Source: Deltaproteobacteria bacterium (GTDB lineage: Bacteria; Desulfobacterota; Desulfuromonadia; Desulfuromonadales; Geopsychrobacteraceae). Taken from it: DNA of 64,000 nt. The DNA lies in NCBI GenBank assembly GCA_024280335.1, contig JAJRQI010000008.1, forward strand, positions 1-64,000, in the 5' to 3' direction. Position 1 is the stretch's first letter; every line of letters starts with the position of its first letter. Under the pieces are notes generated by a model. It was not told where the DNA came from. It did no database searches and worked only from the letters and a program-made list of their open reading frames with translations. The position numbers and the translations under genes were made by a program. This document shows, one piece after another, positions 37,847 to 64,000 of this stretch.

Positions 37847-37982
37847 AATTATTCAACACATCCCGCCTTCGGCACTCTAGCGGCGTTGCTGTGCTGCTCA
37901 AATGCTCATATACCCAAGTATGCACCACTTTTGTGCTGCTCGCGCCTTACCAGAGCACCGAATTCAGGCGTGCTGAATAATT
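37847..37982. repeat. Fold-back intergenic repeat, copy A (136 bp)
   Basis: The element is bounded by AATTATTCA (37847-37855) and TGAATAATT (37974-37982) as terminal inverted repeats. Its interior is the reverse complement, with scattered changes, of the element at 59178-59315. Shared internal words include GCGCCTTAC/GCAAGGCGC, GAGCAGCAC, GAGCATTTGAG and the CGCCTTCGGCAC/GTGCCGAAGGCG end. The arms can pair along most of their length, giving a long imperfect hairpin. No open frame. It fits a MITE or a structured intergenic repeat, here between hprK and ptsN. Confidence 0.75.
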
Positions 37983-51882: not shown

Positions 51883-52353
51883 TTAAACAGCATAGCCGCT
51901 GTTGATCAAAAACCCCTGTTTCAGCAGGGAGAATATTTCCTCTTCACGCACCTCCATCTGCCGCGCCTGCGTTTCGCTGCTCCGTTCATGATCGTAACCG
52001 AGCAGATGCAAGATCCCGTGCAACAACAGAAAAACCAGTTCGTGCTCAAAGGGAATTCCGGCCTCGGCGGCATCCTCGGCCGCGCGCTGTGCCGAAATCA
52101 CCACGTCGCCAAGCAGCAGCGGCGTCAAGCCCCGCCCTTCTCCCTCCTGCATGGCAAAAGAGATGACATTGGTCGGCCGGTCGCGCTGCAAATAATCACG
52201 ATTGATCTCCTGAATCCCGGCATTGTCGAGAATCAGGATCGACAGTTCCGCCTCAGGAAATCCCGAGACGCTTAAGATCTTCCGGGCTATCTTCCGCAGC
52301 GGGCGCTTCAGGATCCTTTGTTTCCGCTGGCGATTCTCGATCTGGATTCTCAC
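51883..52353 (-). CDS. ybeY: Endoribonuclease YbeY
   Basis: Metal-dependent RNase for 16S rRNA maturation and ribosome quality control. The zinc motif H-G-I-L-H-L-L-G-Y-D-H is near residue 115, with R-P-T-N-V-I-S-F earlier. The GTG start at 52353 has AAGGA five bases upstream and gives the family N-terminus (V-R-I-Q-I-E-N-R-Q), length 156. This start lies inside the pgpH gene: the two overlap by 101 bases in different frames, unusually long for a bacterial gene pair. Confidence 0.92.
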   Translation of the reverse strand: MRIQIENRQRKQRILKRPLRKIARKILSVSGFPEAELSILILDNAGIQEINRDYLQRDRPTNVISFAMQEGEGRGLTPLLLGDVVISAQRAAEDAAEAGIPFEHELVFLLLHGILHLLGYDHERSSETQARQMEVREEEIFSLLKQGFLINSGYAV

Positions 52354-54655
52354 TCTCGTCCTTTGTTTTTCCCGTAACGGGAGTCTTGTCGGTCTTCTCC
52401 CGAACAATATGTACCGGTTCCGGATAATCGACCCGATGATGGAAAGATCCGGCCAGAATTCGATTGAAGCTTTTGGCGATCAGATGCAGATCCTTCAGCG
52501 TCAGTTCACATTCATCGAGCTGACCATCGATGAAGACATTATTGATCAGCTTCTGCACCATCCCCTGAATCCGCGCCGGGGTTGGGTCGCTCAAGGTCCG
52601 GCTGGCCGCCTCGATCGCATCTGCCAACATGATCAGCGCCGCTTCTCGGGTCTGCGGCTTGGGTCCGTGGTAACGATAATCCCGTTCGTGCGGCTGCGGC
52701 ATGTCCGCGTCAGTCTGACTTTTGGCCCGATCGTAAAAAAACTTGATCAGAGCGGTCCCATGGTGCTGCTGAATGATGTCGATCAACTCCGCACCGAGTT
52801 TATGTTCACGCGCCAGCTCGACACCATCCTTGACATGTGAGGTCAGAATCAATGCACTCATCGAGGGTGCCAGCTTATCGTGTTTGTTGCGCTGGCCGCC
52901 GGAATTTTCGATAAAGTAGAGCGGTTTCCTGATCTTGCCGATATCGTGATAGTAAGCCGACACCCGGGCCAGCAGCGGGTTGGCATTGATCGCTTCGGCG
53001 GCCGACTCGACCAGGTTGCCGACCAGGATCGAATGGTGGTAGGTCCCCGGAGCTTCGACCATCAACTGGCGTAAGATCGGCGAGTTCATATTCGCCAGTT
53101 CCAACAGTTTAATGTCGGTTGTATATTTGAATACCCCCTCGACCAGCGGAATCGTACCGTTGACGAAGATCGCACTGAAGAAACCGCCGCAGAGGCCGAA
53201 ACCGACCTTCCAGAGCAACTCCAGCTCCAGGGATCGACCGGCCATAAAATGCATGCCGATCAACAGCGCGGCGTTGGTCAGACCGACCCACATTCCCGCC
53301 CGGTAGAGGCTGGAACGTTCCTGGCAGAAGTGCACGCCGTGCGCACCGACCAGACAGCTGGTCAAAGCGAACAGCGCCATAAACAGACTGTTGCCGAACA
53401 ACACCCCGACCAGAATCGAGCAGCAGACCGCAAACAGCAGCGCCGTTTCCGAGTTCAGCACGATCCGCACCAGCATCGCCCCCAGCGCGAAGGGGATCGC
53501 ATAGAAATAGGTCGAGGAGTCGATATAGGCAAAGGTATTACCGAGGCCGGTAGCAATAAATATCGCCAGCTTGATCAGGACAAACAGGATCAGAAAGGTC
53601 GTGGTGAGAAACAGCAGGTCACGTGAATCGGGTTGAAACTTACGGATATTCTCCTGGGCAAAAAAGAAACCGATGTAGATCAGCAAGGAGATACAGATCA
53701 TCAACCCCAGCGCCGTCTGAAAACTGCGATTATCTCGCCCAGACTCGCGGATGGCACGCAGTTTGAGAATCTGGTCGGCGGTGATCCTCGCCCCCTCGCG
53801 AACAACCATTTCACCCTTTTTCACTTGAAACAGCACCGGCTTGACTTCGTCGCGCGCCAGTCGCCGTTGCTGCTCGGTCTCTTCCTGATTGTAGGACAAG
53901 CTCGGCCGCAACTGCTGTTGCACCAGTTTCAGCAATGTCTGGTGCTGAACTGCGGAGAGTCCGGAAATCTGACCGAGCAAGCTCTTCGCCTGCTCCAAGG
54001 CCTCGTTCAACCCGAAAGTTCTTTCCAAAACACCGACCGGAAGATCAGCGCCGCTGCTCTGGTCACGAACCAGAATCCGCTTTTCCCGATCGGCATTGAA
54101 AACCTGCAGATTGGCAACAATCGGCCGCTCAAAAACCTGGGTCAGCGCTGCTCCGGTCAATTCAGGAATCTGCTGATCAAGCGGCAGATGGATCAGCGCC
54201 TGATATTCGACCAGGGTTAAGGGGACACCGAAATCAGCTTCCAGCAACGGCAAAAGCTCATCCCGTTTGGGATCATCTGCGGCATTCTGCTGTTCAAGCA
54301 ACTGGGTCAAGCCGCGGCGAATTCGCTCGACCGCCTCTTTTCCCGCAGTGGTCTGGTAATCATAAATCGGTGGTACGGCAGCCCAAGCTTCGTCACGCTT
54401 CGCCTGGGTCAGCGGGATATCCTCTACCAGCAATTCGCGCGGTGATTTGATATCCCGCGAAGCGATATCCCCCGGTGCATGATAGTCGGGGATGAGCCCG
54501 CCCTTGGGGACGATGATCAGCGTCAGCAACAGCGCCACAGCAAACAGCAGCCAGCCTCCCAGCTGGGGTTTGCTGCGATTGCGCAACCCCTGGACACCGT
54601 CACCGAAAAAGGCCGAACGACCTTCGCGGGCTTTTCTTTGTTCTTCTTTGGTCAT
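52253..54655 (-). CDS. pgpH: 7TM-HD family c-di-AMP phosphodiesterase (PgpH/YqfF-like)
   Basis: Membrane hydrolase of about 800 residues: an N-terminal helix, a large extracytoplasmic 7TM-HD_extracellular domain (about 60-310), seven membrane helices (about 320-530) and a cytoplasmic HD domain with Y-H-D-I-G-K and H-H-G-T, as in PgpH, which splits c-di-AMP. The C-terminal ~40 residues are charged and low-complexity (rich in Glu, Asp, Lys and Pro), and their DNA also encodes the start of ybeY in another frame. The start at 54655 lies 10 bases after phoH; the longer frame overlaps phoH and is unlikely. Confidence 0.9.
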   Translation of the reverse strand: MTKEEQRKAREGRSAFFGDGVQGLRNRSKPQLGGWLLFAVALLLTLIIVPKGGLIPDYHAPGDIASRDIKSPRELLVEDIPLTQAKRDEAWAAVPPIYDYQTTAGKEAVERIRRGLTQLLEQQNAADDPKRDELLPLLEADFGVPLTLVEYQALIHLPLDQQIPELTGAALTQVFERPIVANLQVFNADREKRILVRDQSSGADLPVGVLERTFGLNEALEQAKSLLGQISGLSAVQHQTLLKLVQQQLRPSLSYNQEETEQQRRLARDEVKPVLFQVKKGEMVVREGARITADQILKLRAIRESGRDNRSFQTALGLMICISLLIYIGFFFAQENIRKFQPDSRDLLFLTTTFLILFVLIKLAIFIATGLGNTFAYIDSSTYFYAIPFALGAMLVRIVLNSETALLFAVCCSILVGVLFGNSLFMALFALTSCLVGAHGVHFCQERSSLYRAGMWVGLTNAALLIGMHFMAGRSLELELLWKVGFGLCGGFFSAIFVNGTIPLVEGVFKYTTDIKLLELANMNSPILRQLMVEAPGTYHHSILVGNLVESAAEAINANPLLARVSAYYHDIGKIRKPLYFIENSGGQRNKHDKLAPSMSALILTSHVKDGVELAREHKLGAELIDIIQQHHGTALIKFFYDRAKSQTDADMPQPHERDYRYHGPKPQTREAALIMLADAIEAASRTLSDPTPARIQGMVQKLINNVFIDGQLDECELTLKDLHLIAKSFNRILAGSFHHRVDYPEPVHIVREKTDKTPVTGKTKDESENPDRESPAETKDPEAPAAEDSPEDLKRLGIS

Positions 54656-54665
54656 AGAACCTGAA

Positions 54666-55658
54666 TCATCCTTGCAAACGGTGCTTCGACGTCGGTCCCC
54701 GCCGCTCGGCAGCCTGGTAGGCCTGTACGATCGATTGGACAATCGGATGTCGAACGACATCGACATCGGTGAAATGATTGAAGGCGATCCCCGGCACCCC
54801 TTCGAGCACATCCATCACATGCAACAGACCGGAATAACTGCCGCGCGGCAGATCGACCTGGGTTACATCGCCGGTAATCACCGCCCGGCTGCCGAAACCG
54901 AGTCGGGTCAGAAACATCTTCATCTGCTCGGCGGTGGTATTCTGCGCCTCATCCAGAATCACAAAGGCATCATTCAGGGTCCGGCCGCGCATAAAGGCCA
55001 GCGGCGCGACCTCAACCACCCCGGTTTCGACCATTTCCTGCCCTCTTTCCAGATCGATCATGTCGTAAAGCGCATCGTAGAGCGGCCGCAGGTAAGGGTT
55101 GACCTTTTCGGCCAGATCCCCGGGCAGAAATCCAAGTTTCTCCCCCGCCTCGACCGCCGGGCGCACCAGCATGATCCGGCTGACCTCCTTACGCATCAGC
55201 GCCGCAACAGCCATCGCCATCGCCAGATAGGTCTTGCCGGTCCCGGCCGGGCCGATGCCGAAAACCACATGATTCTGCCGGATATTATCGATATATTCTT
55301 TTTGCGCGACACTTTTTGGTGCGATAATTTTTTTGCGCGCCGAAACAAAGACCGTGTCTAAAAAAATCTCTTTGAGATGGATGGAGGAATCGGCGGAAAG
55401 AATCCGGATCGCGTAATCGACGTCGGTCGGATAGAGCGGCATCCCGTCACGCAATAAAGCCGACAACTCCTCCAGCAGCCGATGGCCGACCTGAACCTGT
55501 GCCTGTTCGCCGGAAAGGGTAACAAGCGCCCCTTTGCTGGCAAGGCGGATGCCGAGCTTCTTCTCAATCAGCTTGAGATGCTGATTCTGCTGGCCGAACA
55601 GTTGCGCGGCCAGTGCAGCATCCCCCACATCAAAATGGTCGCGGGGACTCATAGGCAA
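54666..55658 (-). CDS. phoH: PhoH-family ATPase
   Basis: P-loop ATPase linked to RNA metabolism; commonly next to ybeY. The N-terminal KH-like region (about 20-110) precedes the PhoH domain with Walker A G-P-A-G-T-G-K-T-Y near residue 140, V-R-P-A-V-E-A-G-E-x-L-G-F-L-P-G and F-V-I-L-D-E-A-Q-N-T-T (Walker B). AAGG lies seven bases before a TTG at 55658 and 13 before the ATG at 55652, so the TTG start is preferred though not certain. First gene of the phoH-pgpH-ybeY-corC-lnt operon. Confidence 0.93.
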   Translation of the reverse strand: MPMSPRDHFDVGDAALAAQLFGQQNQHLKLIEKKLGIRLASKGALVTLSGEQAQVQVGHRLLEELSALLRDGMPLYPTDVDYAIRILSADSSIHLKEIFLDTVFVSARKKIIAPKSVAQKEYIDNIRQNHVVFGIGPAGTGKTYLAMAMAVAALMRKEVSRIMLVRPAVEAGEKLGFLPGDLAEKVNPYLRPLYDALYDMIDLERGQEMVETGVVEVAPLAFMRGRTLNDAFVILDEAQNTTAEQMKMFLTRLGFGSRAVITGDVTQVDLPRGSYSGLLHVMDVLEGVPGIAFNHFTDVDVVRHPIVQSIVQAYQAAERRGPTSKHRLQG

Positions 55659-55788: not shown

Positions 55789-55794
55789 TATAAT
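55789..55794 (+). promoter_or_regulatory. Candidate -10 box for the first HEAT/HD-GYP cassette
   Basis: A perfect TATAAT lies 44 bases before the TTG start at 55838; the -35 region is poor. It overlaps the in-frame ATG at 55793, which argues against that ATG being the true start. Confidence 0.4.
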
Positions 55795-55837: not shown

Positions 55838-58021
55838 TTGAACCCGAATCACAACCAAAAACCGCACCCGACTGCGGAGCTGCAGCCACTGGCCGATTTC
55901 ATCAACGAGCTGAATATCGCCCGGCGCAGCTTTTCACTCTACCCCCTGGAACACCCGCAGGTTGCCAGCAGTAACTCCAAAGCACTGCAAACGCTGCTGA
56001 AGCTGCACGAGCTGCGTGAGGAGCTGACACTCGGTGTCTCGCCGGAGACACTCTTTGTCGACCAGCAGTGGCTTGATAAAAATAATCGGGTTTACAACGA
56101 GTTCGCCCGCTTCCTCTTCGATCTCGGCGTCGCCTCGATCAGTTTCAAACGGGGGTTGGTCTTCACCGAGCTGCTGCGCTTCAACCAGCTGCTGCGAGGC
56201 GACCGGGACAGCATTGAAGATGCGGGCGGGTTTCCCGCACTGCTGCAGATGGCGCAGATCAACCATATCAAGATCACTCCCATCGACTACAGCGCCTTCA
56301 GAGCCAGAACCGGAGCAGGGGCTGACAGTGCCGGCCAGAAACCGCTCTGGGAAGGATTCCTGCAGGGATTGCTCAGCGACAGTCTGGATGCTCGCGGCGA
56401 CAGCGGTGACTGGCCCGGCCACCTCGATCCCTCGATCGTCGCCGAAGCGCTCAACCAGCGGCTGGCTGATGAAATCGCCGGAAGCGATGGCTACCAGCGG
56501 GTGGTCTCAACCCTGGTTGCCAAGCTGATTGAAACCGATCCGGAGCAGGATGAACTTCCCGGCCGAAAACTGGGCAGCCTGCTGGAGCAACTTGAGCCGA
56601 AGCTACGTGACAGCTTTTTGTCCAGCACCCTGGAAACTCTCGATCAGGTCCCGGCCGCAGCCGAGCAGGTCCTGGAAAACTTCCCGCAGGAACTGCTGAC
56701 AAAAACCCTAAACCTGCAGCAAAGCCGACAGCTGCACATCTCGAATCGACTGATCAACCTGGTCGGCAAACTCTCGACAACCCCGGCTCCGACTGCCGGT
56801 TACACGCAAAAACCGGATCCGGAATCGCTGGATGAAGAGGTCGTACTCGCCCGGTTGAACATCCTCTTCAACGAAGAGAACCAGGATCTCTACATGCCGG
56901 GAAGCTACCAGCATGCGCTGCGGGAGATCCTCGATAAGGATCAGCTCAACAACCTGCCCGAGGCAGAAAAGCTGGCACTCAAAGAAACCCTGGAGCAGCA
57001 ATCGATTGAACGACAGTGCTGCGCCATCATCTTTGAGCTGATCGACGGTCATCTCTCGGCAGAAAGTGAAATCGCCCTGCAGCAGAATCTGCTGGAACTC
57101 TCCCGCTTTTTTCTCGATACCGGCGACTTTACCGCCCTGCGGGAAATCTACCACCGCTGGTCAGGCTACCTGAACAGCAACCGGGCCCACGCCACAGTCT
57201 TTGATGAAACCCTGCTGACCAACCATACCCGCCTGGCCTTCATGGTCGAAGTCCTGGATGGAGTCGAGCTTTGGGGCAAGGAAAAGGTCGCGGAAATTTC
57301 TGCCTATATCGCAGCGGTCGGCGATGCCTACAGTGAACCGCTGATCGAACGTCTGGGGCTGGAGCAACAGCTGTCGCTGCGGCGGATCTGGATGAAACTG
57401 CTCGAAGGGATCGGCATCTCCGCACACCAGGCAATCATCCCGGGACTCAAAGACAAACGCTGGTATCTGGTGCGCAACCTGCTGATCATCCTCGGCCAGC
57501 AACCGGAACTCTCCTCAATGAAGGCGATCCAGCACCTGACCAACCATCCGCACCCCAAGGTGCGCCAGGAAGTCCTGCGAATTCTCTTTCGCCTGAACCC
57601 CGCCACCGCCAACCGCTTGTTGAAAAAAGAGCTCAGCAGCCATGATCCGGGTGCCCGACTGGCAGCTGTACAGCTGGCCGATTTAAGCCGCGATCCGGAT
57701 GTTCTGAGCAACCTTTTACAACTGCTGCAAGCCAAGCTGGACAGCGATTCAGACCTGGAATTAAAGAAACAGCTCTTAAGGACACTGGCCAGAATCGGCA
57801 ACCCGGACAGCTTGCCGACACTAAAACAGCTGCTGCAGAAAAAGGGCCTGCTCGTCTCGCGCCGGCAGAAACAGTTTCAACGGGAGATCATCGCCAGTCT
57901 TGCTGAATATCCACAGCAACGCGCCGAACCTCTGCTCAAGGAGTTGACCCGCAGTGGCAATCGGCAGCAGGCCAAACAGGCAACCGAGATGCTGCAACCA
58001 TCGGCAGGAGCGAGCCTATGA
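55838..58021 (+). CDS. HEAT-repeat protein, first copy of the HEAT/HD-GYP cassette
   Basis: A soluble 727-residue protein with no signal or membrane segment. Residues 1-160 form a domain starting F-I-N-E-L-N-I-A-R-R with L-Y-P-L-E-H-P-Q-V, also seen at the N-terminus of the HD-GYP partner downstream. A long helical middle is followed by HEAT-like repeats from about residue 540 (D-K-R-W-Y-L-V-R-N, N-H-P-H-P-K-V-R-Q-E-V-L, then two or three more). The TTG start has AGAGGA upstream and makes the N-terminus align residue for residue with the second copy (59430-61616); a longer ATG start is possible. It overlaps the HD-GYP gene by four bases. Probable scaffold or regulatory partner; function unknown. 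Confidence 0.8.
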   Translation: MNPNHNQKPHPTAELQPLADFINELNIARRSFSLYPLEHPQVASSNSKALQTLLKLHELREELTLGVSPETLFVDQQWLDKNNRVYNEFARFLFDLGVASISFKRGLVFTELLRFNQLLRGDRDSIEDAGGFPALLQMAQINHIKITPIDYSAFRARTGAGADSAGQKPLWEGFLQGLLSDSLDARGDSGDWPGHLDPSIVAEALNQRLADEIAGSDGYQRVVSTLVAKLIETDPEQDELPGRKLGSLLEQLEPKLRDSFLSSTLETLDQVPAAAEQVLENFPQELLTKTLNLQQSRQLHISNRLINLVGKLSTTPAPTAGYTQKPDPESLDEEVVLARLNILFNEENQDLYMPGSYQHALREILDKDQLNNLPEAEKLALKETLEQQSIERQCCAIIFELIDGHLSAESEIALQQNLLELSRFFLDTGDFTALREIYHRWSGYLNSNRAHATVFDETLLTNHTRLAFMVEVLDGVELWGKEKVAEISAYIAAVGDAYSEPLIERLGLEQQLSLRRIWMKLLEGIGISAHQAIIPGLKDKRWYLVRNLLIILGQQPELSSMKAIQHLTNHPHPKVRQEVLRILFRLNPATANRLLKKELSSHDPGARLAAVQLADLSRDPDVLSNLLQLLQAKLDSDSDLELKKQLLRTLARIGNPDSLPTLKQLLQKKGLLVSRRQKQFQREIIASLAEYPQQRAEPLLKELTRSGNRQQAKQATEMLQPSAGASL

Positions 58022-59163
58022 GTATCAATGATCAGGAACATCTGCAGCTGTTTATTCGCCACCTGACGACCGCCGCGACCAACGCCGCGCTTTATCACCT
58101 GGAGCACCTGCAGGTATTGCGCCTCTGCCGCAAGGCGCTGGAGCAGGTCAAAATCCTGCACACCAGCCACAACAGTCTGGTATTGAAAATTATCGAAGGG
58201 CGATTGATCTTTGCCAACAAACCGGCATCCCACAGTCTGGCCACCGAGCGACTGCATGAAGCGCTGCAGCTCCACAACATTTCTCATCTGCGCATCGAAC
58301 CGGGGGTTTACAGCGAAGAGCTGCTCGCGCTGGTCAGTATCATCAGCAAGCGACCCGACCAGAAAGCTGAGCTGATCGACAGCGAACATATCCATTTCGG
58401 CCAGGTCGAAGTGCGCTTCAGAAAAAAAAACCAGGTTTCCCAAGCGGCCCTGTTGGGGTTAGCAGAAATCGCCGCAACAGAGAAGGACCAGATTCTGGAG
58501 ATCTATGACGGTGTCCGTGACAAACAGCAACTCAAGGTCAGCGGCATCAACGATATTGTCAACGGCTTCATCAGCGCCTTCGGTAGCCACAGTGACTCTT
58601 TTCTGGCGATCGCCCCGTTGCGCTCGATGGATGAATACACTTACACCCATTCGACCAATATCTGCCTGCTCAATCTGGCCCAGGCCCGGCAGCTCGGCAT
58701 CGAAGGTCCGCTGCTGAATGAGATCGGCATCGCCGCCATGCTGCATGACGTCGGTAAAATGTTCATCGACCCGAAAATTCTCGGCAAAAGCGACAAGCTG
58801 AGCGAAGAAGAATGGCGGATCATGCAGCAGCATCCGCGAACGGGCGCAGAGTACCTGCTCAACACCCCCGGAGTTCCACGTCTGGCGGTCGTCACCGCCT
58901 TTGAACATCACATGCGCTATGACGGGACCGGCTACCCGAAAACCTCGCGCCCCTGGCCGCAGAATCTCAGTTCCTACATGACCGCCATTTCCGACACCTA
59001 CGATGCCATGCGCACCCATCGCAGCTACGAGGAATCGCTTGAGCCGGAGCAGATCAGCGAGATCATGCTGGGTCTTGCCGGCAGCAAACTCCACCCGCAA
59101 CTTACCGGCAGTTTTCTACAGGTTCTCAACAATCTGGACAGGGGTGCGCAGCAGTCGGTCTGA
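58018..59163 (+). CDS. HD-GYP domain phosphodiesterase, first copy
   Basis: A 381-residue cytoplasmic protein. The N-terminal half (about 1-130) repeats the partner's domain (F-I-R-H-L, L-Y-H-L-E-H-L-Q-V, E-H-I-H-F-G). The C-terminal half is an HD-GYP domain: H-S-T-N, M-L-H-D-V-G-K near residue 243, Q-H-P-R-T-G-A-E-Y-L, E-H-H-M-R-Y-D-G-T-G-Y-P and D-T-Y-D-A-M. All metal ligands and the GYP signature are present, so c-di-GMP hydrolysis to GMP is expected. The ATG overlaps the HEAT gene stop (ATGA), implying coupled translation and joint function. Confidence 0.88.
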   Translation: MSINDQEHLQLFIRHLTTAATNAALYHLEHLQVLRLCRKALEQVKILHTSHNSLVLKIIEGRLIFANKPASHSLATERLHEALQLHNISHLRIEPGVYSEELLALVSIISKRPDQKAELIDSEHIHFGQVEVRFRKKNQVSQAALLGLAEIAATEKDQILEIYDGVRDKQQLKVSGINDIVNGFISAFGSHSDSFLAIAPLRSMDEYTYTHSTNICLLNLAQARQLGIEGPLLNEIGIAAMLHDVGKMFIDPKILGKSDKLSEEEWRIMQQHPRTGAEYLLNTPGVPRLAVVTAFEHHMRYDGTGYPKTSRPWPQNLSSYMTAISDTYDAMRTHRSYEESLEPEQISEIMLGLAGSKLHPQLTGSFLQVLNNLDRGAQQSV

Positions 59164-59177
59164 TCTTTCCTGCGAAG

Positions 59178-59315
59178 TTGCTATTCAGCACGCCCGAATT
59201 TGGTGCTCTGGCAAGGCGCGAGCAGCGCAGAAGCGGAGCATACATGGCTATGTGAGCATTTGAGCAGCACAGCAACGCCGCCAGAGTGCCGAAGGCGGGA
59301 TGTGCTGAATAGCAA
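59178..59315. repeat. Fold-back intergenic repeat, copy B (138 bp), between the two cassettes
   Basis: Terminal inverted repeats TTGCTATTCAGCAC (59178-59191) and GTGCTGAATAGCAA (59302-59315) match perfectly over 14 bp. Inside, GGTGCTCTGGC pairs with GCCAGAGTGCC using G-U pairs, and GGCG with CGCC. The unit is the reverse complement of copy A (37847-37982) with scattered changes. It begins 14 bases after the first HD-GYP stop. No coding potential. Confidence 0.78.
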
Positions 59316-59346
59316 CCCTGCGAACAGGTTTGCCTGTAACCTTAAC

Positions 59347-59376
59347 TTGTTGCCGAAGGATGACGAATGGTATAAA
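59347..59376 (+). promoter_or_regulatory. Candidate promoter of the second HEAT/HD-GYP cassette
   Basis: TTGTTG (59347-59352) and TATAAA (59371-59376) with an 18-base spacer, 53 bases before the TTG start. A small ACAGG-TTTG-CCTGT inverted repeat (59324-59337) lies just upstream and could be an operator. Confidence 0.4.
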
Positions 59377-59429
59377 TAGACCTGCTCGTTATCGGCTGAA
59401 AATATCTGTTCATCCACAATGGGGGAAGC

Positions 59430-61616
59430 TTGACTCAACAGGACAAACCGAACGTAGAGGGCGACTTGGACACACAGGTCCTGGCCAATTTCATCTACGA
59501 ACTGAATATTTCACGTCGCCACCTTTCGACCTACCCGCCCGGTCATCCGATGATTGCCAGCGCCACCGAAAAGGTTCTGGCCCTGCTCGACCAGCTCTTC
59601 GAGTTCCGGGAAACGCTCACCCTCGGCATTGCCAAAAATGCCCTGCTGTTCGAGCAGCGCTGGCTCGATAAAAACAACCCGGTCTATCGTGATTTTGCCG
59701 CCGCCCTGTCCAAGGCCGGGATTGCCGCGATCCATTTTCACCGGCAACCGACCGGGGCTGAACTGAACAGTGTCAACCAGCTGCTGCGCTCGGACCGACA
59801 GACGATTGCCGCCGGCGGCGGCTACCCAACCCTGCTGCAGCAGTTGCGGGTCAGCCATATCGAGATCACCCCGGTCGATTACAACGCCCTTCATACCACC
59901 GATGAAGACCGGCTGGAGGTCGGCAGCAAGCCACTGCCGCTCTGGCATGATTTCCTTGACGGTCTGCTCGACGATTCCCTCGATTCAACCGGCGGGTCGG
60001 GACAGAGAGATCAAAAGTTCGATCCGAAGATCGTCGCCGAAATTCTCAACCACCGGTTTACCGACGGCGGGGAGGGAGAGCAGCAGAACTACGACCAGGC
60101 AATCTCCTCCTTTCTCGGCAAGTTGCAGAGTTTTGATCAGCAGGACCAGCTCAGCAACCAGTTCGGAACCCTGATCAACCAGTTGAATCCGGAGCTGAAA
60201 CGGCAATTTTTAAACAGCACCTTTCGCAATCTGGACAATCAACAGGAATCAGGAAAAGAACTGCTGGAAAACTTCCCCACCGAACTGGTGCTCGCTTCGC
60301 TGGAAGAAGCCAACCAGAAGCGGCTCAACATCTCCGGAACCATGATCAACCTGCTCGGCAAACTCTCGGAACATCACCAGAAAGAGAGTCGTCAATCGCT
60401 GACCAGCGGCAAGGTTCGACCGGCGGAAGATGCTGCACAGCAACAGCATCTCCGCACCATCTTCCGGGAGGAAGAAACCGAAAAATTCACCCCCGAATCC
60501 TACCAGCAAACCCTCAATACGATCGTCTCTTTCGACTCGGAGCTGCAGCTTCCGGAGGCCGAAGCACAAGCGCTGCGGCAAAGCATGACAGAGCAGTCGA
60601 TTGAACAGCACTGCTCATCGATCATTTTCCAATTGATGGAGGATGAACTGACTGATGAGCAGTACCACGGCCTGCAGCGCAACCTGATCGACCTGGCCGA
60701 ATATTTTCTTGAGGTTGGTGATTTTACCGGGTTACGCCAACTGCATTGCAGCCTGCTGGACTACTGCCGGCGTAATCCGCAGAAAAACCCGGAACATACC
60801 GCCAAACTACTGGAAACACTTCAGAGTTCGGATTTTCAACAAGAGGTACTGGATAACCTGCAACGCTGGGGACAGGAGAAACAGCAGCAGATCCATGACT
60901 ACCTGCAGGCGACCGGTGAAGCCTTTGCCGAAACCCTGGTAACGCGGCTGGCCGATGAACCGAGTCAAACGTTACGGCGCTTCTATCTCAATGTTCTGGT
61001 CACTATGGGCAGTTCCGCTCACCCGGCCATTTATGCCGCCCTGCAGGATAAACGCTGGTATCTGCTGCGCGACCTGCTTGCCGTGCTGCGGATGCAGAAA
61101 GTGCCGATCGAGCTGGCAAAAATTCTCCCCCTGGAAAACCATCCGCACCGGCGCGTCAGTCAGGAAGTCCTGAAGCTGCTGTTTCAAAAAGACCCCGGCC
61201 GCGCCGACAGCCTGCTGCTCAAGCAACTCAACGGCAGTGATACCGAACTGCGTCTACACGCGATACAACTGGCCGAGTTGAGTAAAGACCCGGCGATTAT
61301 TCAACGGCTGATCGACTTGCTGAGCAGCGAGAAGCTGACCGAGGAGAGTCTGCCGCTGAAAATTCAGATCCTTAAAACCCTTGGAATTACCGGCCGGGAA
61401 GAGGTACTGCCGACGCTCGAAAAACTGCTCTTTTCCGGCAAGTATTTCGGCTCTTCGCGCCTGCAGCAGTTGCAAAAGGAGATCCTCGGCCAGCTCGACA
61501 ACTATCCCTATCAGGCGATCAAACCGCTGCTGCAGAAGCTGGTGTTGGCGCGCCGCGGCGAACTGTCGAAGCTCGCCACGGAAAAATTACGTCAACTGGC
61601 CAGGAGCTCGCCGTGA
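59430..61616 (+). CDS. HEAT-repeat protein, second copy of the cassette
   Basis: A soluble 728-residue paralogue of the protein at 55838-58021, similar from end to end: F-I-Y-E-L-N-I-S-R-R at the start, W-L-D-K-N-N-x-V-Y, E-N-F-P-x-E-L in the middle, E-Q-S-I-E and I-I-F-Q-L-M-E, then HEAT-like repeats from about residue 540 (D-K-R-W-Y-L-L-R-D, N-H-P-H-R-R-V-S-Q-E-V-L). Divergence is spread evenly rather than confined, which points to an old duplication. The start is TTG behind GGGGGA. It overlaps its HD-GYP partner by four bases (GTGA). Function unknown. Confidence 0.8.
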   Translation: MTQQDKPNVEGDLDTQVLANFIYELNISRRHLSTYPPGHPMIASATEKVLALLDQLFEFRETLTLGIAKNALLFEQRWLDKNNPVYRDFAAALSKAGIAAIHFHRQPTGAELNSVNQLLRSDRQTIAAGGGYPTLLQQLRVSHIEITPVDYNALHTTDEDRLEVGSKPLPLWHDFLDGLLDDSLDSTGGSGQRDQKFDPKIVAEILNHRFTDGGEGEQQNYDQAISSFLGKLQSFDQQDQLSNQFGTLINQLNPELKRQFLNSTFRNLDNQQESGKELLENFPTELVLASLEEANQKRLNISGTMINLLGKLSEHHQKESRQSLTSGKVRPAEDAAQQQHLRTIFREEETEKFTPESYQQTLNTIVSFDSELQLPEAEAQALRQSMTEQSIEQHCSSIIFQLMEDELTDEQYHGLQRNLIDLAEYFLEVGDFTGLRQLHCSLLDYCRRNPQKNPEHTAKLLETLQSSDFQQEVLDNLQRWGQEKQQQIHDYLQATGEAFAETLVTRLADEPSQTLRRFYLNVLVTMGSSAHPAIYAALQDKRWYLLRDLLAVLRMQKVPIELAKILPLENHPHRRVSQEVLKLLFQKDPGRADSLLLKQLNGSDTELRLHAIQLAELSKDPAIIQRLIDLLSSEKLTEESLPLKIQILKTLGITGREEVLPTLEKLLFSGKYFGSSRLQQLQKEILGQLDNYPYQAIKPLLQKLVLARRGELSKLATEKLRQLARSSP

Positions 61617-62779
61617 ACAATGACCGAACCCAGGAGATCCTCTCCTTTATCCGGCGCTTGACCACCGCTGTCGCTACCGCCACGCTGTACGATCAGCAAC
61701 ATCAACAGGTCAACTATCTCTGCCGGCTGGCGCTGCAACATCTGCAGCAGATCTTTACCGATCAGGAAGAGGTTTCACTGCTGCTGGTCGAAGGCGAACT
61801 GATCTTCGACAACGCTCCGCTGGAGACCGACCTGGCGGTCGGCAAGTTGATTAGCGCCCTGCAGCAGCGCGGCATCGGCCACCTGAAATTCCGCAGCGGC
61901 CTACCGCAAGCGGAGTTGCTCGAACTGATCGTCATCCTGCTGCCGAAAGGGTTGCAGGCAAAGGAGATCAGCTCCAGCGAACATATCCGTTTCGGCCGGG
62001 TCGAAGTCCACAGCCGGAGTGTGGAGCAGGGCGACAGCATCGGTGAGCTGTTTCAACAGTTCCCGGAACTGGCTGAGGTTGAGAGTCTGGAGCTGAGCAA
62101 GTTCATGGACCTCTACCAGAGCGTCCGCGCCGGCCGCCGACTGAACGTCCGCGGACTGAGCGAAATTGTCGGCAGCTTCGTCAACGCCTTCTCCGAGCAG
62201 GGCAACCCGCTGATCGCTTTGGCGCCGCTACGCAATATGGACGAGTACACCTACACCCACTCGACCAACGTCTGCATTCTCAACATCGCCCAGGCACGGA
62301 TGCTCGGCATCGAAGGACAAGCGTTGCATGACATCGGCATTGCCGCCATGCTGCACGACATCGGCAAGCTGTTCGTGCCGCAGGAGATCCTGCAGAAACC
62401 GGGCAAGCTGGATGACAAAGAATGGGAGTTGATACGGGATCATCCACGGCTCGGTGCCGAATATCTGGTCAATACCCCTGGCATCCCGCGGTTGGCGGTG
62501 ATTACTGCCTATGAACACCATCTGCGCTACGATCAGAGCGGCTATCCTAAAGTGCCGAAAAACTGGCGGCAGCATCCGACCAGCCAGATGACGACAATCT
62601 CCGATTTCTTTGATGCCCTGCGCACCCACCGTTCCTACCGGCTCGGCATGGATCTGGACAAAATATCCGCGATCATGCTCGAAGAAGCAGGGACCGCCCT
62701 CCACCCGCTGCTGACCCGCAACCTGCTCAAAACGGTACAGAAGCTCGACCAGCAGGGCCAGCTCAATCTGCGCCACTAG
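61613..62779 (+). CDS. HD-GYP domain phosphodiesterase, second copy
   Basis: A 388-residue paralogue of the protein at 58018-59163. The N-terminal domain has F-I-R-R-L-T-T-A, Q-H-Q-Q-V and E-H-I-R-F-G. The HD-GYP half has H-S-T-N, M-L-H-D-I-G-K near residue 245, H-P-R-L-G-A-E-Y-L and E-H-H-L-R-Y-D-Q-S-G-Y-P; the metal site and GYP are retained, although D-G-T-G-Y-P has become D-Q-S-G-Y-P. The two copies differ most in their N-terminal domain and linker, so they may answer to different inputs. The start is a GTG overlapping the HEAT gene stop. Confidence 0.88.
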   Translation: MNNDRTQEILSFIRRLTTAVATATLYDQQHQQVNYLCRLALQHLQQIFTDQEEVSLLLVEGELIFDNAPLETDLAVGKLISALQQRGIGHLKFRSGLPQAELLELIVILLPKGLQAKEISSSEHIRFGRVEVHSRSVEQGDSIGELFQQFPELAEVESLELSKFMDLYQSVRAGRRLNVRGLSEIVGSFVNAFSEQGNPLIALAPLRNMDEYTYTHSTNVCILNIAQARMLGIEGQALHDIGIAAMLHDIGKLFVPQEILQKPGKLDDKEWELIRDHPRLGAEYLVNTPGIPRLAVITAYEHHLRYDQSGYPKVPKNWRQHPTSQMTTISDFFDALRTHRSYRLGMDLDKISAIMLEEAGTALHPLLTRNLLKTVQKLDQQGQLNLRH

Positions 62780-62965: not shown

Positions 62966-64000
62966 ATGAGTGAAGACAGCAAAAAAATCATCTATTCGAT
63001 GATGCGAGTCAGTAAACACTACAACAAACAGCCGATCATCAAGGACATCTCCCTCTCCTACTTCTACGGTGCCAAAATCGGCGTGCTCGGCTTGAACGGT
63101 TCGGGTAAATCGACCCTGCTGAAAATCATGGCCGGGGTCGACAAGGAGTTCAACGGCGAGGCGGTACTCTCCGAAGGCTACAGCGTCGGTTATCTGGAGC
63201 AGGAACCGCAGCTGGATGAACAGAAGACCGTCCGTGAAGTGGTGCAGGAAGGAGTGCAGGAGATCGTCGACCTGCTGGGGGAATTCGAGGAGATCAACAA
63301 CGCCTTCGCCGATCCTGATGCCGACATGGATAAACTGCTGGCCCGACAAGCGCTGGTGCAGGACCGGCTGGACGCGGCCGATGCCTGGGATCTCGACTCA
63401 CGCCTGGAGCTGGCCGAAGAGGCGTTACGCTGCCCGGCTCCCGACACCTCGATCAAGGTGCTTTCCGGCGGCGAGAAACGTCGCGTTGCGCTCTGCCGTC
63501 TGTTGCTGCAAAAACCGGATATTCTGCTGCTCGATGAGCCGACCAACCACCTGGACGCCGAGACCGTCGCCTGGCTGGAGCAGCATCTGCAGCGCTACCC
63601 CGGCACGGTGATCGCCGTCACCCATGATCGTTACTTCCTCGACAATGTCGCCGGCTGGATTTTAGAGCTGGATCGCGGCCAGGGAATTCCCTGGAAGGGC
63701 AACTATTCGAGCTGGTTGGAGCAGAAACAGGAGCGGCTGCGCAAGGAAGAGAAGTCGGAAAGCAAGCGACAGCAAACCTTGCAACGCGAGCTGGAGTGGA
63801 TCCGCATGTCGCCGAAGGGACGGCACGCCAAGGCTCAGGCACGGATCAACTCCTACGAGGAGCTGCTCGGCAACGAAGCCGCAGCAAAAGAACAGCAGAT
63901 GGAGATCTACATTCCACCGGGGCCACGTTTGGGCGGTGTCGTAGTGGAAGCCAAAGAGGTCAGCAAGGCGTTCGGTGAGCGATTGTTGATCGACAATTTC
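62966..64000 (+). CDS. ettA: Energy-dependent translational throttle protein EttA (ABC-F), 3' end outside window
   Basis: Ribosome-associated ABC-F ATPase that gates the first elongation step according to ATP level. The first 345 codons are present. The first ABC domain has Walker A G-L-N-G-S-G-K-S-T near residue 37, signature L-S-G-G-E-K-R-R and Walker B L-L-L-D-E-P-T-N-H-L-D-A-E. The interdomain linker (W-I-R-M-S-P-K-G-R-H-A-K-A-Q-A-R) is of the EttA type, and the second ATPase domain is just starting at the window edge. AAGGA lies nine bases before the ATG. Confidence 0.92.
   Translation, partial: MSEDSKKIIYSMMRVSKHYNKQPIIKDISLSYFYGAKIGVLGLNGSGKSTLLKIMAGVDKEFNGEAVLSEGYSVGYLEQEPQLDEQKTVREVVQEGVQEIVDLLGEFEEINNAFADPDADMDKLLARQALVQDRLDAADAWDLDSRLELAEEALRCPAPDTSIKVLSGGEKRRVALCRLLLQKPDILLLDEPTNHLDAETVAWLEQHLQRYPGTVIAVTHDRYFLDNVAGWILELDRGQGIPWKGNYSSWLEQKQERLRKEEKSESKRQQTLQRELEWIRMSPKGRHAKAQARINSYEELLGNEAAAKEQQMEIYIPPGPRLGGVVVEAKEVSKAFGERLLIDNF

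Follow-up and report, generated by a model that had tools for sequence, protein, structure and literature searches.

HD-GYP enzymes and HEAT-repeat scaffolds are both already known, and the HD-GYP proteins described to date are mostly single chains in which an input domain is fused to the catalytic domain. The base-recognition motif of HD-GYP domains is RXXK (PMC12072042), represented in PmGH of Persephonella marina by R314 and K317 (PMC4159591), while PmxA of Myxococcus xanthus is an HD-GYP enzyme acting on 3',3'-cyclic GMP-AMP (cGAMP; PMC8844925). Here we describe two tandem gene cassettes in a 64,000-nucleotide stretch of DNA (hereafter the window) from a Deltaproteobacteria bacterium of the family Geopsychrobacteraceae (GenBank contig JAJRQI010000008.1 of assembly GCA_024280335.1; contig 13 of a 3.58 Mb genome that is 99.5% complete), in each of which a gene encoding a HEAT-repeat protein is followed by one encoding an HD-GYP protein. 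As argued below, each pair probably constitutes a co-translated, two-subunit cyclic-dinucleotide phosphodiesterase module whose partners carry homologous N-terminal domains (N-domains). As far as could be checked, a fixed pairing of this kind, in which the partners share an unnamed domain, is apparently undescribed: three of 5.39 million open-access papers mention both HEAT repeats and HD-GYP, and by title and abstract none of the three concerns the pair, subscription papers lying outside the search, and the pair is not named in those passages of papers on Geobacter cGAMP signalling that deal with phosphodiesterases.

The first cassette consists of HEAT1 (55838-58021; 727 amino acids) and HD1 (58018-59163; 381 amino acids), and the second of HEAT2 (59430-61616; 728 amino acids) and HD2 (61613-62779; 388 amino acids), all on the forward strand. 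Both HEAT genes start with TTG, that of HEAT1 having AGAGGA upstream and an alternative in-frame ATG at 55793, and HD2 starts with GTG. Within each cassette the stop codon of the HEAT gene overlaps the start codon of the HD gene by 4 nucleotides, as ATGA at 58018-58021 and as GTGA at 61613-61616, in agreement with a preliminary description of this DNA. The same description held that the two HEAT proteins, and likewise the two HD-GYP proteins, are alike from end to end, and this is borne out by BLASTP: HEAT1 and HEAT2 are 41% identical over 730 amino acids (E 3e-165), and HD1 and HD2 are 48% identical over 375 (E 4e-123).

Each HEAT protein comprises an N-domain, a helical middle, and C-terminal HEAT repeats. 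The earlier characterization of a HEAT-repeat protein of ~727 residues is correct as to length, but true HEAT repeats are confined to roughly the C-terminal 215 residues. Pfam HEAT_2 matches the C-terminal part of the two proteins at 57.3 and 36.4 bits (cut-off 27.7), and in HEAT2 the solenoid extends over 60966-61607 (~residues 513-726), as indicated by the HEAT_2 match at residues 595-667 and by the helices of an AlphaFold2 model; the middle, although helical too, is of a different kind and contains linkers modelled at low confidence. Foldseek searches with the full HEAT model returned generic solenoids and no specific relative, and a single-protein scan of the genome contigs with HEAT1 returned no match. 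Membership in the bilin lyases or another named HEAT family was rejected on scores below the cut-offs, the NCBIfam models NblB and CpcE scoring 16 and 10.2 bits against cut-offs of 300 and 330, respectively.

The partners are joined by more than gene order, in that HEAT and HD proteins are homologous over their first ~130-150 residues. When profiles built from 63 pairs were compared with hhalign, the two N-domains matched with 99.3% probability (E 1.8e-20, 126 columns), and the relation was recovered in long and short types of the pair separately (E 1e-10 to 1e-17), while control comparisons of the N-domain with the middle and C-terminal HEAT regions or with the HD catalytic domain gave E values of 0.013-0.4. 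These controls rule out chance similarity; a resemblance over ~130 residues, which the preliminary description had reported and had singled out as a point on which its proposal could fall, is thus upheld. Consistent with this finding, HEAT1 matches the N-termini of HD1 and HD2 by BLASTP (E 4e-4 and 2e-4), and hidden Markov models of the HEAT-type and HD-type N-domains match each other reciprocally in class-level loci. Within the window, profile matches place the N-domain at 55877-56338 in HEAT1 (approximate limits) and at 58027-58437 in HD1, and profile matches together with AlphaFold2 models place it at 59463-59924 in HEAT2 and at 61622-62032 in HD2. In the models (mean pLDDT, the predicted local distance difference test score, 86.7 and 81.5) helices (a) and strands (b) follow the order a-a-b-b-a-b-a-b in both partners, with two additional short helices ahead of the last strand in the HEAT type. 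The motif Leu-Tyr-x3-His (LYxxxH) is invariant in 31 HD-type N-domains, and its Tyr is near-invariant in the HEAT proteins too (Y35). The N-terminal parts of the four window proteins have no Pfam match, a Pfam-A scan of 31 N-domain members returned no model that two members had in common and no match with E under 0.03, and a PDB search returned only chance matches to designed repeat proteins; the domain is therefore unnamed as far as these libraries go.

In its own genome the N-domain occurs in exactly five proteins, namely the four encoded in the window plus one short, orphan HEAT protein on another contig. In a tree of 88 N-domains (154 columns, modest branch support) the HEAT-type and HD-type domains form separate clusters, requiring 2-3 label changes as compared with 28 in shuffles, and the N-domains of GGDEF proteins and PilZ proteins also cluster separately. 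The separation of the HEAT-type and HD-type clusters suggests that the N-domains of the two partners most likely parted early from one ancestral domain and then travelled as a set.

The pairing itself is widely conserved. Across 60 genomes of the order, relatives of both proteins were found nearly everywhere, with HEAT and HD matches adjacent, and extraction of the neighbourhoods (68 HEAT and 65 HD genes) yielded 63 pairs, 43 of which overlap by exactly 4 nucleotides (gap -4). Among 194 genomes of the class, the HD gene lies directly downstream and on the same strand in 115 of 123 full-length HEAT matches, and none shows the two genes in reverse or other arrangement. The eight HEAT matches for which no HD gene was listed include two that do have one, missed by the cut applied to the list (genomes G120 and G154), two with a broken HD or HEAT frame (G097 and G095), and four at contig ends (G010, G188, G165, and G117). 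The expectation that the pairing would be conserved elsewhere, on which the preliminary description had also made its proposal depend, is thereby confirmed well past the order, and pairs occur in other phyla as well. That the two genes have been inherited jointly, being kept together across the class and beyond, suggests that the HEAT scaffold is likely a dedicated partner of the HD enzyme.

Trees of the HEAT and HD proteins concur in dividing the copies at this locus into three paralogue groups: alpha, comprising copy 1 of the window and its relatives throughout the family; beta, comprising copy 2 in this genus; and gamma, to which the second copy of other genera belongs. Seven genomes have two readable cassettes, and in every one of them the first cassette is alpha in both its genes and the second consists of two beta or two gamma genes. 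The trees conflict with respect to a single-cassette clade of five genomes, which joins beta in the HD tree (support 91/51, weak) but falls outside it in the HEAT tree (97/91). The family locus consists of one or two cassettes flanked by divergent phoH/pgpH genes on one side and an ABC-F gene on the other. Wherever neighbours are visible, cassettes of the alpha, beta, and gamma groups all lie beside the former and/or the latter; more distant long-type and short-type pairs are found at other loci. In the window, the phoH-like gene (54666-55658, reverse strand) has a pgpH-like gene encoding a seven-transmembrane HD protein behind it (52253-54811), and the gene for an ABC-F type ATPase (62966-64000, forward strand) extends past the window end. 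From tree and locus alike, the cassette duplication is ancient and family-wide; a recent duplication is ruled out, the copies being 41-48% identical and each having closer relatives in other genera. The earlier proposal of a duplicated dedicated module whose partners share a domain therefore stands as to the dedicated module, while the duplication, instead of being recent, spans the family and comprises three paralogue groups. Decay of one cassette was also encountered in relatives (L070:11297-12000 region and L107:4860-6948): the second cassette of one genome (G003) is fragmented and interrupted by stop codons close to the end of a contig, and in another (G006) the alpha HEAT gene is split over two frames, which may be an assembly error.

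Both HD proteins join the N-domain to an HD-GYP phosphodiesterase domain, matched by Pfam HD_5 at 53.9 and 67.6 bits (cut-off 27.2) and located in HD2 at 62165-62752, with the GYP codons at 62540-62548. In an alignment of 63 enzymes, including both window HD proteins and numbered after PmGH (PMC4159591), the two-metal ligands (H...HD...H...HH...D), the catalytic Lys, and the Tyr of GYP are invariant (63/63), and among 75 more distant members HD..GK is retained in all 75 and the GYP pattern in 73. Judged by these residues, the HD proteins are predicted to linearise a cyclic dinucleotide, assumed here to be cyclic di-GMP (c-di-GMP). The position of E185, the Glu of the third metal in PmGH, is occupied by Tyr in all 63 sequences, which assigns the window enzymes to the two-metal kind and not to the trinuclear PmGH subgroup.

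The equivalent of PmGH Arg314 is conserved, and the residue at the position of K317, which contacts guanine O6, follows the paralogue groups: Glu or Asp in 19/19 alpha, Arg in 9/9 beta (the five-genome clade counted in), and Lys in 5/5 gamma sequences. Gln is found at this position in eight of nine short-type modules and in neither window copy, where the residue is Glu338 in HD1 (59029-59031) and Arg343 in HD2 (62639-62641). Among the 75 distant members, 15 of which are unreadable by pattern at this position, the only acidic residues read were in two of alpha type. An acidic side chain here would make no donation to guanine O6 and could accept from the adenine amino group, so that specificity may have shifted, and the difference between the copies suggests a possible divergence in substrate in addition to input. 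Candidate dinucleotide substrates are plausibly available in the cell, whose genome encodes a diadenylate cyclase domain in addition to the pgpH-like gene. Four GEMM-I riboswitches (L307-L310, contigs 42 and 35) are also present, two in tandem of a GGGC form and two of a GAGC form. In L309 and L310 one position carries A in place of G, which we take to be the mark of cGAMP-binding GEMM-I members; the occurrence of two forms suggests that this organism signals with c-di-GMP and with cGAMP alike.

Beyond the class, the N-domain was found in 112 of 297 genomes sampled across the phylum (class included), and in 81 loci from these matches it heads 58 HD-GYP and 54 HEAT proteins, most of which form neighbouring pairs. 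Pairs also lie on contigs of metagenome-assembled genomes (MAGs) labelled Nitrospirae, Clostridia, Phycisphaerales, Gemmatimonadetes, and Armatimonadetes, labels that may be wrong on contigs that may be misbinned. Independent doubling of the cassette (L144, L162) was observed in the Nitrospirae MAG (divergent, back to back) and in the Armatimonadetes MAG (tandem). In addition, the 81 loci contain fusions of the N-domain to other signalling domains. Seven are GGDEF-AAA-N-HEAT proteins, several with two N-domains, and the large GGDEF-AAA-N-N-HEAT proteins with a STAND-like ATPase (~1,400-1,460 amino acids; L249, L250, L251, L260, and L306, one locus having two in tandem) resemble diguanylate cyclases equipped with an ATPase switch, and no description of them is obvious. 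Two proteins (L256:4014-9056, 1680 amino acids; L259:3920-6676, 918 amino acids) combine N-domain, HEAT repeats, a cyclic mononucleotide (cNMP) binding domain, and PilZ, and may be receptors that integrate c-di-GMP with cyclic mononucleotide inputs. Two histidine kinases carry the N-domain without HEAT repeats, and three proteins are of N-GGDEF type, a weak class in that only one passes the Pfam cut-off and the search model was itself trained on that class.

How might such a module operate? The HD-GYP subunit would act on its cyclic dinucleotide at the two-metal site, and the HEAT subunit, its level matched through translational coupling, would be the dedicated partner of this enzyme. The two N-domains most likely pair, or jointly sense one signal, and the HEAT solenoid would tether the enzyme to a target or regulate it. 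In this family an ancient duplication of the whole pair at a single locus gave two cassettes, which would have been retained as separate cognate sets and whose enzymes differ in one base-recognition residue.

Several observations weigh against this scheme. The N-domain also occurs in single-chain proteins and so may be a sensor and not a pairing domain, and 15 of the 194 class genomes contain no HEAT match, making the module common but not universal. The orphan short HEAT protein in the own genome (contig 36; L096:6054-7601) carries an N-domain without an adjacent HD gene, the next gene being unrelated and on the opposite strand while its short-type relatives adjoin an HD-GYP gene; partnership is therefore not obligatory. 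Finally, given Tyr at the E185 position everywhere and Glu at the K317 position in copy 1, activity on c-di-GMP should not be taken for granted. The main rival to the two-subunit module accordingly treats the N-domain as a stand-alone sensor or homodimerisation domain, such that the partners read a signal separately without binding each other and the HEAT protein acts on some other target. Like an input domain, the N-domain heads histidine kinases and GGDEF proteins with no N-HEAT in the same chain, and the invariance of LYxxxH in HD-type N-domains is what a binding site would display; the HEAT-type and HD-type domains, however, form separate lineages in fixed pairs, which fits complementary surfaces better than a shared sensor, and we regard this rival as possible but rather doubtful.

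Were the HD proteins instead mainly receptors or switches for cyclic dinucleotides, with little catalysis and with the HEAT protein as output, the replacement of the trinuclear-site Glu and the change of RXXK to RXXE/D in copy 1 would be readily accommodated, as would the presence of the inactive HD-GYP protein Bd1817 among the best structural matches (PMC8177086). Bd1817, however, has lost residues of the very kind that are invariant in all 63 sequences here, and one-step hydrolysis has been ascribed to binuclear HD-GYP enzymes (reviewed in PMC8177086), so that a receptor role appears unlikely. Conservation of the phoH/pgpH locus within the family would agree with the HEAT and HD genes being merely co-transcribed housekeeping neighbours of that locus, functionally unlinked, but the pair remains intact at loci without phoH or pgpH in the order, class, phylum, and other phyla, and the same domain is found on both genes, leaving this explanation highly improbable. 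A broader extension of the two-subunit module, which we offer tentatively and do not expect to hold in full, is that the N-domain, for the most part together with HEAT repeats, wires HD-GYP, GGDEF, PilZ, and some histidine kinase proteins into complexes across many phyla, copy 1 in this family removing cGAMP or cyclic di-AMP and copy 2 c-di-GMP; with an acidic residue where guanine O6 is contacted, copy 1 would prefer adenine, and hence an adenine-containing dinucleotide.

Outside the module, a palindrome-ended repeat element of ~140 bp lies between the cassettes (59177-59316, no strand assigned). This element, ~132-140 bp in length with ends forming a perfect 15-nucleotide inverted repeat (GTTGCTATTCAGCAC), has a second copy in the window (37850-37979) and more than 20 near-full-length copies in the genome at 88-98% identity, and resembles a miniature inverted-repeat element. 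A scan of the window for riboswitches and other RNA control found a tRNA alone, and promoter and terminator scans of it performed no better than on shuffled sequence.

The arrangement described here is of interest in that a homologous N-domain is carried by a second, HEAT-repeat subunit, so that many orphan HD-GYP enzymes gain a candidate regulator in the HEAT protein, the fusions tying in GGDEF and PilZ proteins as well. Moreover, the tandem cassettes provide a natural test both of insulation between cognate signalling pairs and of whether one charged residue alters base preference.

Comparison with characterized systems places the pairs as follows. The A subunit of PP2A and the bilin lyases CpcE and NblB share a HEAT solenoid with HEAT1 and HEAT2 as a generic fold match only, offering an analogy of scaffold and hydrolase; they have no family relation to the HEAT proteins and no N-domain. 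PmxA is a membrane protein of Cache-HAMP-HD-GYP architecture (PMC4877007) lacking both N-domain and HEAT partner, and is by that architecture ruled out as a characterized member of the group. In PmxA-type enzymes, specificity for cGAMP goes with a glutamine near the active site. Bd1817 of Bdellovibrio (PDB 3TM8) likewise combines an HD-GYP part with an N-terminal domain (Foldseek ~340 columns, template modelling scores 0.49/0.60), but it has a degraded metal ligand and GYP motif and is inactive on c-di-GMP (PMC8177086), whereas these features are intact in the HD proteins. No sequence relation was found between its N-terminal domain and the shared N-domain. RpfG of Xanthomonas differs in having a receiver domain and a histidine-kinase partner, and is not known to have a HEAT protein or an N-domain. 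It does provide a precedent of a kind, being an HD-GYP protein thought to act in complexes with other c-di-GMP proteins (PMC8177086). The best match of the HD proteins in both sequence and fold is PmGH (PDB 4MCW; PMC4159591), with which they have in common the two-metal ligands, the catalytic Lys, the GYP Tyr, and the Arg314 equivalent. Unlike PmGH, they carry Tyr in place of E185, and are thus binuclear, with Arg (copy 2) or Glu (copy 1) in place of K317; their N-domain belongs to another family, and they are accompanied by a HEAT partner.

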